DNA from: a virus
Virus record (IMG/VR): IMGVR_UViG_3300009432_001002
Location: 1-26,000 of that record
Strand: one strand, 5' to 3'
Length of the DNA: 26,000 nucleotides
The position numbers were made by a program, and so were the translations under genes. Shown here one piece after another: positions 12,306 to 18,951 of the stretch. Within the stretch, counting starts at the first letter, position 1. The number at the start of each line of letters is the position of its first letter. The notes below the pieces were generated by a model. It saw only the letters and a program-made list of their open reading frames with translations. It had not been told where the DNA came from and searched no databases.

Positions 12306-12965
12306 TTATCCTAAGTGATGTTCTTTAGGGTTCTTATAATCAACCTTCTTAAAATATCTATTCAAGGCTTTAATCATATTAGGTTGAGGAAATAAATCAT
12401 CCTTATCTGACCGTACAGCTCCATGAGAATAAATACCAGGTTTATGTTCTTTCACAATAGAGCCATCATATTTAAAACCATCAAGGAAATTATGCGGTAT
12501 AGGAATATTTGGGAACCTCATAACCAGGTGGCCGATTAATTCACATAAAGAAGTGATTTGTTCAGAAGTGATTTTCTGGTAATACCTATTTTTCTTATAA
12601 GGCCTCTTCAGTATTTCAACTTCAACCTCGGGTACTATTTGATTGTAGGTATCATAATATTTCTCACCCTTCTTGGTTAATCTTCCTATGGTTACCATCT
12701 CTATCCCAATACCATGGTGTTCATGGAAATTATCATCTCCTTTAATCCCTAAATGATAAGCCACTGCAGAAGGATCAAAGCATTCAATAATTTCTCCCTT
12801 TCTCCCAATCAAGTAAGCAGTACCAACCCTTTGCTTAGTTTGATTCCACCAATCCCAAGCTGATTGCCATGATGATGAAACTGTATGGTGTAACCATATA
12901 GAATACTTAATTTTAACATCAGGTATGTATTGCCCTTTAGTTAGATATTTTTTTAAAATCTTCAT
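12306..12965 (-). CDS. Endolysin, N-acetylmuramoyl-L-alanine amidase (PGRP/Amidase_2 fold)
   Basis: The protein has 219 residues. YSIWLHHTVSSSW (21-33) gives a zinc-binding His (H26/H27). GTAYLIGRKGEIIECF is the central strand pair with the conserved Tyr. AYHLG (69-73) and HHGIGIEMV (83-91) are typical Amidase_2 features. SHGAVRSDKDD (180-190) supplies the second zinc His (H181) and an acidic third ligand in the usual 'H.......KxD' position. This matches T7-lysozyme-like enzymes cutting the MurNAc-L-Ala bond. No signal peptide is seen, so a holin would be required. The 5' end overlaps the methyltransferase gene by 29 bases. Confidence 0.9.
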   Translation of the reverse strand: MKILKKYLTKGQYIPDVKIKYSIWLHHTVSSSWQSAWDWWNQTKQRVGTAYLIGRKGEIIECFDPSAVAYHLGIKGDDNFHEHHGIGIEMVTIGRLTKKGEKYYDTYNQIVPEVEVEILKRPYKKNRYYQKITSEQITSLCELIGHLVMRFPNIPIPHNFLDGFKYDGSIVKEHKPGIYSHGAVRSDKDDLFPQPNMIKALNRYFKKVDYKNPKEHHLG

Positions 12966-13962
12966 AATTGTTTATTTTCTTTTTAAACCATAATGCAATT
13001 TCATAAGGTGGGCACTTGGTAACGGTAACCCTTGCTTTATTCAACCAGTAATTCCAGTTGTCTTTATCGTAATGGATCTTGAAACTACCGGGTAGCCCTT
13101 GTATGGTTGCAAGCTGCCGGGGGGATAGGGCATTACCCCTGGAATCAAATTGTCTGGTTTCTTTACGAGCAGTCATAGGGTAACAATCTGCCATATTCCT
13201 ATAAACTCCCGGTAAATTTTTCATCCTGGTACCCGGCATAGCCCACCTCTTTTGCCCATGATATTTACTCCTCCATATTTTCTTAACCTCTTTTAGGTTT
13301 AATTTCTTTCCCTCGAATGACATAGGGACCGAATGTTCTGGATCTTCTCGATAATTAAAATCGGGGCATTCCTTTGCATCAAGTTCTAATTGCCTACTTG
13401 TTTTAAGTACCTTAGAAGTTTTTAATTCCCCGAATATATTATCAGCTTCTTTATTCTGATCCTTCCTTATCCCTATTAATATCAATCTTATCCTATTTAC
13501 TTGAGAATTACCGAACTCTTTTACGGATCCCTCATGAGTTATAAATCTATATTGATCAGATAATAATTCTATCATATCCTGGTAGGTACCGGTTTCTTTA
13601 AATTTAATCAAATTCTCCATTAGAAATACCTCAGGTTTAAAATATTCCACAGAAGAAATATATTGGGCTATCGAGATATTATCCTTAGGATCATGTGTTT
13701 TCTTTGCTCGAGAATAACTTAATATAGAGCTATGCCCACAATCAGGCGCACCAATTAAGTAATTAATACTCGAGGGCAATTCCTTGGCTTCTTTGTAGTC
13801 ATTTAAACTCTTAAAATAGGGAGTATTACCAAAATTTAGTTTCCATTGTTCTAGTAGTTTAGTATGGAATACCCTTCTAGGCTCTATATTTGCAACTATA
13901 TCCTTATTTTTAAAGGTATGTAGCATTACACCATTACCCGCGCATACACCAATTATTTTCAT
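12937..13962 (-). CDS. C5-cytosine DNA methyltransferase-like protein
   Basis: The protein has 341 residues. Motif I-like IGVCAGNGVMLHTF (4-17) binds AdoMet. LIGAPDCGHSS (69-79) occupies motif IV with the catalytic Cys at 75. FLMENL (113-118) is motif VI (ENV-like). QVNRIRLILIGIR (154-166) is motif VIII. SPRQLATIQGLPGSF near residue 295 is motif IX-X (TxRExaRLQGFP). It is thus a C5 methyltransferase family member, with a GAPDCGHSS variant instead of the canonical GGPPCQxFS. It may be an orphan phage enzyme protecting DNA from host restriction. No paired endonuclease is seen. Divergent from the plus-strand gene at 13993, with only 30 bases between. Confidence 0.85.
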   Translation of the reverse strand: MKIIGVCAGNGVMLHTFKNKDIVANIEPRRVFHTKLLEQWKLNFGNTPYFKSLNDYKEAKELPSSINYLIGAPDCGHSSILSYSRAKKTHDPKDNISIAQYISSVEYFKPEVFLMENLIKFKETGTYQDMIELLSDQYRFITHEGSVKEFGNSQVNRIRLILIGIRKDQNKEADNIFGELKTSKVLKTSRQLELDAKECPDFNYREDPEHSVPMSFEGKKLNLKEVKKIWRSKYHGQKRWAMPGTRMKNLPGVYRNMADCYPMTARKETRQFDSRGNALSPRQLATIQGLPGSFKIHYDKDNWNYWLNKARVTVTKCPPYEIALWFKKKINNYEDFKKISN

Positions 13963-15481: not shown

Positions 15482-16270
15482 TTAAGTATTTCGTTGTCTT
15501 AACAACCCACGTTCGTTATAAAATACGTGTAGTGATGTTATATGCATATAAAGAATACCTATGTCTAAAACTGCCTTAAATGCTATGTGTTGAGTTAATC
15601 TGGATGCTAGGTAAACATCATCTCTAAAATGCCTTAAGAAATCACATGATCTAATATAATAATGGCAATGTAATTTCCCTCTTACCACATAAAAATGATA
15701 ACCCAATGTACAGGGTACTCTTTCATTCATAACATTCCCAGTATCTTCGGGAAACCAAACAGGTAGATAAGCTTGTCTGGTTGTAGGATCTCTCCTTAAT
15801 AAATCAATAACATCTTCAAGGTCTCCAAGGTTATACCTGATACCCATATTAGGAGTAATGAAACCATGGTCATCCGATTGTTGTCTTTCTATCAAAAGGG
15901 TATCATCAAACCTACCGGCAAACTTAGGCCAAAACCTTTCCATATAGGAATGGGAGAATTGTTGGTTGGAATCTCTGAACTTATCATCAGAGGGTTTATG
16001 TTTATAGAATCTCCAGTTTTTGTATTGGTTACCTGGGTTTAAAGGCATACCATTAATTCTTTCATTGAAATGATCTTCAGCCCAAGGTAGTTGGGGTTTT
16101 AAACCTGCCAATTCAAATGGTTCATCGGGGATGGGATATTCAAATATTACCGGGGATAATTCAAAGGTATCATCTGGGGATTTAACAGATTGCCAATGGG
16201 TTTGTTTTACCCTTAACCCTTTTAGTATGAATCCCTCTTTAAGGTCTTCTATGCTTGTATATCTATGCAT
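15482..16270 (-). CDS. Thymidylate synthase-family enzyme with dCMP-type Asp (possible dCMP hydroxymethylase)
   Basis: The protein has 262 residues, the usual thymidylate synthase size. TRQAYLPVW (R165) supplies the phosphate-binding Arg. ERVPCTLGYHFYV has the catalytic Cys (C177). GKLHCHYYIRSCD (197-200) is the RS.D dUMP-binding motif, and HITSLH (233-238) corresponds to the HxxSxH region. In thymidylate synthase RSCD....PFN has an Asn that selects dUMP; here the aligned residue is Asp (D208, in FRDD), as in T4 dCMP hydroxymethylase. So the substrate may be dCMP and the product hydroxymethyl-dCMP. The family is sure; the substrate is inference. A lone TAAATTTG lies just upstream of the ATG. 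Confidence 0.85.
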   Translation of the reverse strand: MHRYTSIEDLKEGFILKGLRVKQTHWQSVKSPDDTFELSPVIFEYPIPDEPFELAGLKPQLPWAEDHFNERINGMPLNPGNQYKNWRFYKHKPSDDKFRDSNQQFSHSYMERFWPKFAGRFDDTLLIERQQSDDHGFITPNMGIRYNLGDLEDVIDLLRRDPTTRQAYLPVWFPEDTGNVMNERVPCTLGYHFYVVRGKLHCHYYIRSCDFLRHFRDDVYLASRLTQHIAFKAVLDIGILYMHITSLHVFYNERGLLRQRNT

Positions 16271-16294: not shown

Positions 16295-16498
16295 TTAATA
16301 GTAAATGAGCTCGATGTAGGTATGATATTTTAATCGGGTAATCCTATTAGTTACTTTACTACCAAAAACGCTAAGATGAGGTCCCACCTTATCTTCTTCT
16401 AGTTTAAGAAGGTTATTCAATGCTTGGTATCTTTTATAGATATTACAGTAATTACTAGCAATAGGGGTCGGTTGGGGGTATGATATAGGAAGCGGCAT
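16295..16498 (-). CDS. Small hypothetical protein (uncertain)
   Basis: The frame has 67 residues (MPLPISYPQPTPIASNYC...) with a Pro-rich start and mixed C-terminus. It overlaps the end of the preceding gene by 44 bases, more than typical coupling but possible. No motif is seen. The next gene begins 24 bases downstream. I keep it because it fills the gap in the operon, but its start may be wrong, and it could be a non-coding stretch. Confidence 0.4.
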   Translation of the reverse strand: MPLPISYPQPTPIASNYCNIYKRYQALNNLLKLEEDKVGPHLSVFGSKVTNRITRLKYHTYIELIYY

Positions 16499-16715
16499 GA
16501 GTTTGGAGTATTTCTAATACCTGAGTATGTTCGGTTTTATCTTCGATATAACGGGCGATGATGGGTAGATACAGATCGATATCTTCGGCTTTGATAGGCC
16601 AGATATTTATTATATGTTGGGCAGTAAATCGGTTTTCGTAGATATTATTATTGAAGAAGAACACGGGGTCCTCAATCGCTTTCTGTAATAATATATCATA
16701 AGGTTCCTTATCCAT
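16455..16715 (-). CDS. Small hypothetical protein
   Basis: The protein has 86 residues, acidic and helical (ALQKAIEDPVFFFNNN-like, ARYIEDKTEHTQVLEILQTHAA), with no membrane segment and no family I recognise. Codon usage and strand agree with the neighbours. It lies upstream of the 67-residue gene and the synthase family gene. Its ATG at 16715 follows an AT-rich stretch (ATATATAAAAAT) with no clear Bacteroidota -7 motif. Confidence 0.55.
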   Translation of the reverse strand: MDKEPYDILLQKAIEDPVFFFNNNIYENRFTAQHIINIWPIKAEDIDLYLPIIARYIEDKTEHTQVLEILQTHAASYIIPPTDPYC

Positions 16716-17064: not shown

Positions 17065-17329
17065 GGTTATAGGAATAAGGATTAAAGGATTAACAGGATC
17101 ATCAGGGTTAAGAGGATTAAGGCTATACTAGATACCCATAGAGGACCTTTATGTTTCATATACTATAATAGTATGTAGGATCCCAATCAGCGGATCGCTT
17201 ATCGCGGGGTACCTAAAAAGTTGTGGTATTTTTTCAGGAGGTTGGTATGCATTAATTAAATAGACTAACCCTACAAAATAGGGGTTAATCTATCTAAATT
17301 TAATTTAGATTAAATACTTAACTTTCTTT
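17065..17329. other. Non-coding gap with hairpins
   Basis: A 265-base gap without a convincing gene. It starts with degenerate GGATTAA-type repeats near the 17064 ATG (a minus-strand leader rich in TTAATCCT). It contains a 6 bp palindrome ATACTA-TAA-TAGTAT (17160-17174) and a GC-rich patch GCGGATCGCTTATCGCGGGG (about 17189-17208), then the hairpin at 17260-17293. Confidence 0.5.
17260..17293 (-). terminator. Probable terminator of the AT-rich island operon
   Basis: A stem of about 12 pairs with one C-A mismatch: ATAGACTAACCC (17260-17271) and GGGTTAATCTAT (17282-17293), with a loop of about 10 bases. On the minus strand it is followed by TTTAATTAAT, a weak U-rich tail. It lies 37 bases past the last tiny gene (stop at 17330), where the operon should end. 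Confidence 0.55.
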
Positions 17330-17407
17330 TTACTCTTTGAATTTAACGTCTTTAACACCTAGACAGAGAATGATTAAAGCAAAGGGAATTAGTAGAATTA
17401 AACTCAT
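17330..17407 (-). CDS. Tiny hydrophobic peptide 2 of the AT-rich island
   Basis: I read a 25-residue frame, MSLILLIPFALIILCLGV with a charged tail VKDVKFKE. The first 17 residues form a plausible single membrane helix with a short cytoplasmic or periplasmic charged end. The ATG is separated from the stop of the preceding peptide by only three bases, so they could be co-translated. Too short for a homology-based call. The pairing with a second hydrophobic peptide directly upstream makes a chance frame less likely. Confidence 0.45.
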   Translation of the reverse strand: MSLILLIPFALIILCLGVKDVKFKE

Positions 17408-17410
17408 AGC

Positions 17411-17503
17411 TTATTTAATTTTGTAACCGTTGAAAATAATTATTGATAATGTAATTAGATAAATTATCAGTAAAGTGATTAGTAAAGTATTTAGTAACTG
17501 CAT
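17411..17503 (-). CDS. Tiny hydrophobic peptide 1 of the AT-rich island
   Basis: I read a 30-residue frame starting MQLLNTLLITLLIIYLITL and ending in NGYKIK. The middle 20 or so residues are hydrophobic and would span a membrane. Its ATG overlaps the stop of the 162-residue gene (sequence TAATG), the classic arrangement for translational coupling. A second hydrophobic peptide follows after three bases. Tiny hydrophobic peptides are seen in type I toxins, holin regulators and membrane-protein chaperones; none can be chosen here. Confidence 0.5.
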   Translation of the reverse strand: MQLLNTLLITLLIIYLITLSIIIFNGYKIK

Positions 17504-17991
17504 TATTTATTCAATTTAATGATTTGTAGAAATAATTGCACTTTTATTAAAGTTTCTGAATCGCTGTTTTTCTTTGCTAATGAGTTAACCGTATAATCAT
17601 TATTTAAATAAATATCTTTATAGAAGATATTAAATTCTTTAATTATAACTTTCTTATTCACTTCATTCTTTGTTTGAACTGCTAACAATAAAGAGTTTAC
17701 AAAAAAGTTTCTCTTCTTTCTAATTAACTCCCTTTCAGAAGAATCAATTTTTGTACGCTCTAATTTAAAGAACTTGTTAAACGCTTCTAAATTATAGATA
17801 GATTCCCTTTTACCCTTTACGCTATTTTTAACTTTTACTTTTACTTTATCTTCTAATAAAGCAAATATTTGGTCGTTTGTTAACTCCTTCCCATCTACTA
17901 ATTGGAGTAGGTCTTCACTTGTTTTAACGTTAGATAAATCTAATGCTTTAGATACTTTAGATACTTTAGAAATTGTTTTTAAATTACTCAT
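17503..17991 (-). CDS. Unknown basic protein A of the AT-rich island
   Basis: The protein has 162 residues, Lys-, Leu-, Asn- and Phe-rich, with an N-terminal stretch SKVSKVSKALDLSNVKTSEDLLQLVDGKELTNDQIF that could include a helical bundle and a Lys/Val-rich middle (VKVKVKNSVKGKRE). It has no membrane segment and no recognised motif. Codons are noticeably more AT-rich than in the late genes. The gene is preceded by a copy of the 97 bp leader-palindrome element shared with gene B and followed by two tiny peptides. Function unknown. Confidence 0.7.
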   Translation of the reverse strand: MSNLKTISKVSKVSKALDLSNVKTSEDLLQLVDGKELTNDQIFALLEDKVKVKVKNSVKGKRESIYNLEAFNKFFKLERTKIDSSERELIRKKRNFFVNSLLLAVQTKNEVNKKVIIKEFNIFYKDIYLNNDYTVNSLAKKNSDSETLIKVQLFLQIIKLNK

Positions 17992-17995
17992 GATT

Positions 17996-18092
17996 TAAAT
18001 TTTAAATTATTAATTATTTTGTAAAGATAGTCTTTTTGATACTCCAATTACGTTTTTTCTAATTTAGAATCATTCTAAATAAGAACTAATAA
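17996..18092 (-). promoter_or_regulatory. Duplicated leader-promoter element, copy A
   Basis: About 97 bases nearly identical to copy B at 18411-18508. On the minus strand it has a TTG-containing -33 candidate (AACGTAATTGGAG), a -7-type TATCTTTA, and the leader AATAATTAATAATTTAAAAT before the ATG of gene A. The far end carries the perfect 19 bp palindrome at 18062-18080. Confidence 0.75.
18062..18080. promoter_or_regulatory. Palindromic operator candidate, copy A
   Basis: ATTTAGAATCATTCTAAAT is a perfect 19 bp inverted repeat with a single central base. It sits just upstream of the -33 candidate of copy A, a position suited to an activator or repressor dimer. Confidence 0.7.
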
Positions 18093-18406
18093 AAAAAGTA
18101 TTCTATTTTAATACTGTTAAACTCCTTTCTGTTTTCACTTTCTTGTATTATTTCTTCTGAATATTCTAAACCGTAAGTATCTTCTAAATTTAAATCTAAT
18201 AAATAAATTTCTAATTTAAATAGAAGAAACTTTTTTAAATCGTTTACTAATCTAAATTTTATACTTGTATCAATTTTAAAGTTTATTCTCAAACTTGTTT
18301 CTTTTAAAGATAAGAAAAAAACTTCTTTTTTAAAGAACTGGTTAAACTCACGCTCAAATTTTAAATTAAGTTTATTTTGTATTGCTAGTAGTTCAGAATG
18401 ATTCAT
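18086..18406 (-). CDS. Unknown protein B of the AT-rich island
   Basis: The protein has 106 residues, Phe-, Lys- and Leu-rich (MNHSELLAIQNKLNLKFEREFNQFFKKEVFFL...), mostly helical, without a membrane segment or recognised motif. It is upstream of gene A and has its own copy of the same 97 bp leader, so the two may be controlled together while being transcribed separately. Proteins A and B do not look alike to me beyond general Lys/Phe/Leu richness. The stop overlaps the start of copy A of the leader by a few bases. Function unknown. Confidence 0.65.
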   Translation of the reverse strand: MNHSELLAIQNKLNLKFEREFNQFFKKEVFFLSLKETSLRINFKIDTSIKFRLVNDLKKFLLFKLEIYLLDLNLEDTYGLEYSEEIIQESENRKEFNSIKIEYFFY

Positions 18407-18410
18407 ATTG

Positions 18411-18508
18411 TAAATTTTAAATTATTAATTATTTTGTAAAGATACTTTTTTTCATGCTCCAATTACGTTCTATCTTAATTTATAATCATTCTAAATAAGA
18501 ATAATAAA
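18411..18508 (-). promoter_or_regulatory. Duplicated leader-promoter element, copy B
   Basis: Second copy of the 97 bp element, beginning TAAATTTTAAATTATTAATT and ending AGAATAATAAA. The leader and the start of the -7 region are identical to copy A for about 34 bases. The -7 to -33 spacer differs (TACTTTTTTTCATG against TAGTCTTTTTGATA), while CTCCAATTACGTT and the palindrome are kept. In this copy the palindrome (18478-18496) has one mismatch. Confidence 0.75.
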
Positions 18509-18951
18509 TCTAAAAAAATTAGGATATTAAATAAAAATAATGTTATTAAAAATTTGAAAAAATTGGTCAAAACTTTCACAACCTTGCACAACCTGCCCCC
18601 AGTTGGCAGCTAGCAGGGTGCTAGGGTTAGCAGCCGTTGGGCCTTAAGTGCGGGTCCTTGTTTTGTAGCGAAAGCTTCTTATTTGCTATATATATTATCT
18701 CCCCTTATTATGCCACAAACTACTAGAATCATACCCTTTTCTGCCCCATTGATGCCTCTTTCACTATACTTAATCTCCAGGCAAAAGTTGTATATGGTTT
18801 AAGGATATAGGTCTTTAGGGCCCTACTGTCCTAGAGCTATATAATAACTGGGAACGCCTAGGATACTATGAACTATGAACTAGGAACGAACTAGGAACGT
18901 GGAACGCCTCCGCTTTAGGGCCTATACTTGGTTAGGGCTCGGGATCACACG
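18509..18951. other. Non-coding region with structured GC-richer block and short repeats
   Basis: A gap of about 440 bases without a supported gene. Positions 18590-18660 are richer in G and C and can fold locally: GCTAGCAGGGTGCTAGGG, TGCC..GGCA type arms, and AGCGAAAGCT near 18667 (a GNRA-capped stem). A 100-base-spaced direct repeat CTTTAGGGCC lies at 18813-18822 and 18913-18922. The block 18851-18909 holds repeated GAAC units. This could be an origin, a cis-acting signal or an RNA gene; no tRNA was recognised. Confidence 0.45.
18851..18909. repeat. Short GAAC-type direct repeats
   Basis: GGAACGCCT at 18851-18859 and 18901-18909. ACTATGAAC at 18865-18873 and 18872-18880, overlapping. AACTAGGAACG in tandem at 18878-18888 and 18889-18899. 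Six GAAC cores fall within 60 bases. Confidence 0.8.

Follow-up and report, generated by a model that had tools for sequence, protein, structure and literature searches.

Phage morons, for example those of lambdoid phages, are accessory genes that carry their own promoter and terminator. Lambdoid phages also carry stx1, whose promoter is repressed by iron and Fur, and Fur-family sites generally share an AATNATT core arranged with 7-1-7 symmetry. In Riemerella anatipestifer (Flavobacteriales), a 19-bp Fur box, ATTTAGAATTATTCTAAAT, was derived with RegPredict; its copies lie 9 to 91 nt before start codons, and purified Fur shifts box-carrying promoters, as seen by EMSA on four promoters (PMC5609570).

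The locus described here lies in a 26-kb stretch of tailed-phage DNA, called the window below, which is the whole record analysed and may be an incomplete genome. Like phage morons it has its own promoters and a terminator-like hairpin, both predicted, together with foreign composition and a variable location; unlike them, it carries two repeated operators of a host-regulator type. It resembles stx1 in being a phage-borne accessory locus under host Fur, a control that in the window is predicted, but stx1 is a single gene under classical repression, whereas the window shows repeated modules, a box upstream of the promoter and a lineage-wide pattern. The two boxes of the window lie about 70 nt before the start codon, inside the Riemerella range. 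The Riemerella box controls bacterial iron genes, whereas those of the window, as predicted Fur sites, precede orphan phage genes.

An AT-rich cassette in a tailed-phage genome

The window encodes a terminase large subunit, a major head protein, a C5-cytosine methylase and a thymidylate synthase-like gene. Most of its genes, the cassette included, are on the minus strand. No tRNA genes were found in it, and an Rfam search gave no match above the gathering score. The window terminase shares 91% identity with its counterpart in contig L012 and 61 to 64% with those of three gut-phage records, including phage DP (MT121964). The methylase and the thymidylate synthase-like protein (12937-13962 and 15482-16270) are encoded near each other, which is possibly linked to DNA base modification.

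The cassette occupies an AT-rich island at 17254-18545 (minus strand) with a G+C content of 21.9%, compared to 35.8% elsewhere in 1,200-bp windows (sd 2.2%, minimum 30.4%). At both edges, near 17250 and 18545, the fall in G+C is complete within about 50 bp. The 500-bp windows at 17501-18000 (24.6%) and 18001-18500 (19.4%) are the lowest of all, every other one being at least 29.6%. Genes A and B have 24.7% and 20.6% G+C, against 36.5% (sd 3.0%) for the remaining genes. The first-pass annotation, which had set the island apart from its surroundings and proposed the 500-bp comparison as a check, is thus borne out, and composition is not uniform across the window. Short tandem repeats, AGGATTAAC in 4.9 copies and GAACTAGGAACGAGGAAC in 2.1 copies, are seen in the non-coding DNA that flanks the island on its two sides (17078-17120 and 18870-18906).

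Contig L012 is co-linear with the window from the terminase up to and including the gene at 16455-16715, beyond which it carries other genes. Within this comparison, which covers L012 up to the counterpart of 16455-16715 and the genes that follow it, the far side of the site being outside the contig, the cassette is absent; the palindrome described below is also absent from L012. Homologues of genes from both island flanks occur in a single genome, that of phage DP, in consistent order, from which we conclude that the two flanks form one unit, interrupted by a variable stretch that contains the island. An origin as a fragment of host DNA, or as an assembly artefact, rather than as a phage locus would be in keeping with the sharp composition edges, the non-coding DNA on either side and an operator of a type usual at host genes; we give it scarcely any weight, since the left and right flank genes represent one phage lineage with conserved order, as in phage DP, and since A and B have no match in the host genomes searched. 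The proposal that the island is an acquired, moron-type accessory cassette carried by a tailed Bacteroidota phage is instead supported by its composition, its own promoters, the terminator-like hairpin, the variable locus and the absence from L012.

Both annotated genes are present as first described. Gene A (17503-17991, minus strand) encodes a Lys-rich protein of 162 aa that is mostly helical in a low-confidence model, and gene B (18086-18406, minus strand) encodes a protein of 106 aa with a predicted alpha-beta-beta-alpha-beta-beta arrangement. From base composition, the chance of stop-free runs this long in such DNA is estimated at about 1e-7 for A and 3e-5 for B. Both proteins are orphans: no homologues were found in IMG/VR, sequenced phages or plasmids, or in 397 genomes of one flavobacterial family, and none of A in GTDB genomes, where searches by short exact peptides detect close relatives only. 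The best match in the flavobacterial family, with an E value of 2e-4 per genome, equals chance over 397 genomes and has no box near it. Homologues with a core phage function, which the first-pass annotation had named as evidence against an acquired cassette, did not appear, no homologues of any kind being found.

Neither protein matched a family or a defence system in Pfam, NCBIfam, PADLOC, PHROGs or PDB sequences. Prediction from the single sequence gave B the fold of a small alpha/beta protein with moderate confidence (pLDDT 72.6), and this model matched no PDB or BFVD structure at E <= 1e-3; the model of A (pLDDT 46) was not used. The suggested roles in immunity, toxicity or host control therefore stay candidates, none of them being favoured by a family or defence match or by a confident fold match. 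An alignment of A with B scored no better than shuffles, and we do not consider them paralogues. One box-carrying contig encodes an orphan, Lys-rich protein of 172 aa (L111:144-662, minus strand), with an upstream box of the same variant as at gene B. BLASTP aligned A with this protein at E 0.005, a score matched by 0 of 500 shuffles; we keep the kinship as a weak lead, the phmmer E value being 2.3 among 8,553 ORFs and the L111 protein having no relatives.

Downstream of A are two small ORFs, both on the minus strand and both strongly hydrophobic, with the appearance of single membrane helices. The start of the first (17411-17503, 30 aa) overlaps the stop of A as TAATG, and the second (17330-17407, 25 aa) starts 3 nt past the stop of the first. 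In dinucleotide shuffles, a comparable coupled membrane-like ORF arose in 3 of 5,000 and the pair in 0 of 5,000, which makes it improbable that the coupled ORFs arose by chance in AT-rich DNA. The operon is closed by a terminator-like hairpin (17255-17301, minus strand) with a minimum energy of -27.8 versus -16.6 kcal/mol (z = -3.8). The two tiny coupled membrane peptides and the bounding hairpin of the first-pass annotation both stand, the former on the ORFs themselves, their TAATG coupling and the shuffles, the latter on its z score.

The roles proposed for A, B and the peptides are drawn solely from composition and size. With low confidence, A and B may be small host-control or superinfection-exclusion proteins, and the two hydrophobic peptides may insert in the inner membrane, a placement also held at low confidence. 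The cassette products as a whole could act in control of the host envelope or in superinfection exclusion, with their expression linked to the iron state of the host; our confidence in this, too, is low.

Duplicated operator-promoter modules

The regions before B and between B and A are copies of one module of about 110 nt, at 18397-18501 and 17982-18085, respectively (minus strand). The direct repeats comprise 84 nt (85% identity) and 26 nt (96%) at a spacing of 415 to 416, and the two modules are identical over 34 nt from TATCTTTA through the leader, which agrees with the duplicated operator-promoters annotated before B and A. Since the same module of about 110 nt precedes each gene, an integron-type cassette array was considered; we set this reading aside on the ground that the repeat has the layout of an operator and a promoter.

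Each module contains a palindrome that we predict to be a Fur-type operator. The one upstream of A (18062-18080), ATTTAGAATGATTCTAAAT on the minus strand, matches ATTTAGAATNATTCTAAAT exactly, and the one upstream of B (18478-18496), ATTTAGAATGATTATAAAT on the minus strand, has one mismatch to it. The box before A differs from the Riemerella sequence at the central base only, and that before B differs at one more. No further palindrome closer than 4 mismatches occurs in the 26-kb window. The boxes are followed on the minus strand by AACGTAATTGGAG, conserved in both copies and a putative -33 region (18457-18469 for B, 18042-18054 for A), and by TATCTTTA, a putative -7 element of the TAnnTTTG type (18437-18444 for B, 18022-18029 for A), which starts 33 nt after the box in the B module and 32 nt after it in the A module. 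Both -7 elements of the window end in A, compared to G in TAnnTTTG, a departure that, like the mismatch in the box before B, counts against control by Fur or a Fur-like protein. The distinct promoter type that the first-pass annotation had reported is retained, with TATCTTTA as its -7 element; the operator that accompanies it had gone unrecognised. Pattern searches for two conserved blocks, TAATTGG and TATCTTTA, produced chance matches in coding DNA, and a rodent-gut microvirus with a similar promoter has no box.

The palindrome in flavobacterial and viral genomes

In 149 flavobacterial genomes the exact palindrome occurs at 7 sites, compared to 0 for a reversed-palindrome control. These sites are confined to 6 of the 149 genomes, so that many have few or none, and the core motif in the host of the window phage may differ, exact boxes being scarce in many flavobacterial genomes. 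With up to one mismatch allowed, 60 genomes of one flavobacterial order have 45 sites versus 2 for the reversed palindrome. Pfam backs the identities of the genes that follow host boxes. Several genomes have hemA in this position and several others nqrA; further targets include cytochrome c of respiratory complexes, a 4Fe-4S ferredoxin, sufS-like class-V aminotransferases, FTR1 iron permeases, TonB-receptor-like genes and a Peripla_BP_2 protein. As predicted from these assignments, the set of flavobacterial genes behind the box is an iron regulon in content. The distance from host box to -7 element is 47 nt at nqrA, 45 and 56 nt at cytochrome c and 34 nt at ferredoxin.

Such sites might instead be used by a host regulator related to Fur, of the PerR, Zur or haem-responsive type, or by another redox or iron regulator with a similar 7-1-7 site, in which case the cassette would read the peroxide, haem or oxygen state. 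The hemA, sufS-like, nqrA, cytochrome c and ferredoxin targets would also fit a haem or redox regulon, and at several host boxes a conserved AraC-type gene is divergent from hemA. We nevertheless consider such a regulator somewhat unlikely, because the Riemerella EMSA used Fur itself on promoters with this box (PMC5609570) and because the targets include FTR1 and TonB-receptor-like genes.

In viral DNA the exact palindrome is present in at least 119 IMG/VR stretches, compared to 2 for its reversal, which has identical composition, and the sites are almost never inside large ORFs. In dereplicated contexts, TAnnTTTG follows the viral boxes 64 times, compared to 13 to 23 for control motifs. The distances from box to TAnnTTTG, in contigs picked by exact box match on which the spacing classes rest, cluster at 13 to 16, 34 to 35, 44 to 47 and 55 to 56 nt, a phasing reached by 0 of 5,000 random position sets, also with one site per contig. 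The 13- to 16-nt class precedes structural-type genes, which encode a portal and tail-like proteins as well as a protein that starts with MAVKPEIIKARLKALFPKANLS, and the classes from 34 to 56 nt precede small ORFs without assigned function, several of which have a membrane segment. Flavobacterium and Polaribacter phages account for most relatives of one of the boxed portals among sequenced phages, evidence in favour of flavobacterial hosts for the contig concerned, at least. In five contigs (L201, L221, L225, L239 and L242) a single box lies between divergent genes, with the -7 element on the side of the tail-like gene at 13 to 14 nt; on the opposite side, with the -7 element at 34 to 35 nt, several of them encode a short protein whose N-terminal segment is membrane-like.

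Although common, the box does not occur in every flavobacterial phage. Three sites each are present in two of the phages with relatives of that portal, the cultured Polaribacter phages Danklef_1 and Freya_1, where the control palindrome has none, and three other cultured flavobacterial phages have no box with up to one mismatch. A literature search, with subscription papers outside its coverage, found no account of either Fur boxes or Fur proteins from phages of this kind.

This distribution bears on the self-regulation proposed in the first pass, taken here as a model in which A or B would act on the duplicated operator as a repressor or antitoxin, in the manner of a toxin-antitoxin system. 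A small cassette with two operators is consistent with that model, as are hydrophobic peptides of 25 to 30 aa, which are presumably close to type I toxins in size and character. However, the same operator recurs in the iron regulon of hosts and in many unrelated viral contigs without A or B homologues: among ORFs around viral boxes, no match to A was better than E 0.38, and no match to B was listed. Furthermore, A and B match no DNA-binding family, each has its own promoter, unlike a typical toxin-antitoxin operon, and no toxin-antitoxin homologue or known fold was found for the cassette in Pfam, NCBIfam, PADLOC, PHROGs or PDB sequences. Self-regulation is highly improbable on these grounds. 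As far as its sequence allows it to be classed, the switch of the cassette is of the host Fur type and recurs with unrelated genes, and no self-regulation is visible in it.

Candidate regulators and the sense of control

We lean, with some reserve, towards a reading in which host Fur, or a protein resembling it, controls the cassette, whose products would act on the envelope and in host control. One putative promoter module, built from the Fur-type 7-1-7 palindrome, the TTG region and the Bacteroidota -7 element, serves gene B in one copy and the operon of A with the 30-aa and 25-aa peptides in the other. Both boxes would be bound by host Fur, or by a member of its family whose gene lies elsewhere in the phage genome, and B and A would then be switched together with the iron state of the cell.

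A phage-encoded, Fur-like regulator outside the 26 kb has a possible parallel in Freyavirus (Danklef/Freya; MT732458, MT732463), in which Danklef_1 and Freya_1 each combine their three boxes with a protein that its annotation assigns to the ferric uptake regulator family (Pfam E 1e-7, N-terminal part only). Freyavirus is like the window in having the same palindrome at intergenic sites, but differs in that its boxes are near the -7 element (TAnnTTTG at 3, 5 and 16 nt) and precede structural genes, and in that it carries its own Fur-type gene, whereas the 26-kb window has none. A search for Fur-family genes (PF01475) gave no match in the window, a record that may be incomplete, and no Fur domain was found in 40 other box-carrying viral records; the Freyavirus protein is itself confined to 17 records among sequenced phages. 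A phage-encoded regulator is distinctly unlikely in view of these results, and the absence of a Fur-family gene from the 26 kb and from the 40 records makes host Fur the most likely regulator.

The main text of the paper on the isolation of the Danklef and Freya phages does not mention the Fur-family gene. In its product (Danklef_1, L278:44806-45234; L285-L288), a Fur-type winged-helix region is fused to a C-terminal stretch, NGRVFVEG..DP..IGYALLD, which in five box-carrying viral contigs is a separate small ORF. No Fur domain was detected in these five contigs. This arrangement hints that the small NGRVFVEG-type protein may be a partner of host Fur.

For the window, activation in iron-replete cells appears slightly more likely than simple repression, by analogy with the host nqrA, ferredoxin and cytochrome c promoters, since the box is upstream of the -33 region as it is there, and from the helical phase. 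The two boxes of the window, at 32 and 33 nt, are consistent with each other but 1 to 3 nt short of the commonest class, 34 to 35 nt, which weakens the activation model. The Freyavirus boxes that adjoin the -7 element would fit repression better.

New here is a defined, host-type operator that many Bacteroidota phages carry in phase with the promoter and that, in one cultured lineage, is accompanied by a phage-encoded Fur-like protein. The box provides a sequence handle for finding promoters, and with them accessory cassettes whose proteins lack homologues. A broader proposal, which we put forward tentatively and at less than even confidence, is that Bacteroidota phages have repeatedly adopted the host Fur operator as a promoter module, set on one constant face of the helix, where Fur, or a Fur-like protein of the phage, would activate small accessory genes as well as structural ones with iron as the common input, the cassette of the window being one instance with tandem modules. 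The iron-sensing hypothesis is directly testable in the cultured Polaribacter phage-host pairs. If it is true, Bacteroidota phages, which are major in the gut and the sea and whose regulation is largely unexplored, would sense the iron state of their hosts.
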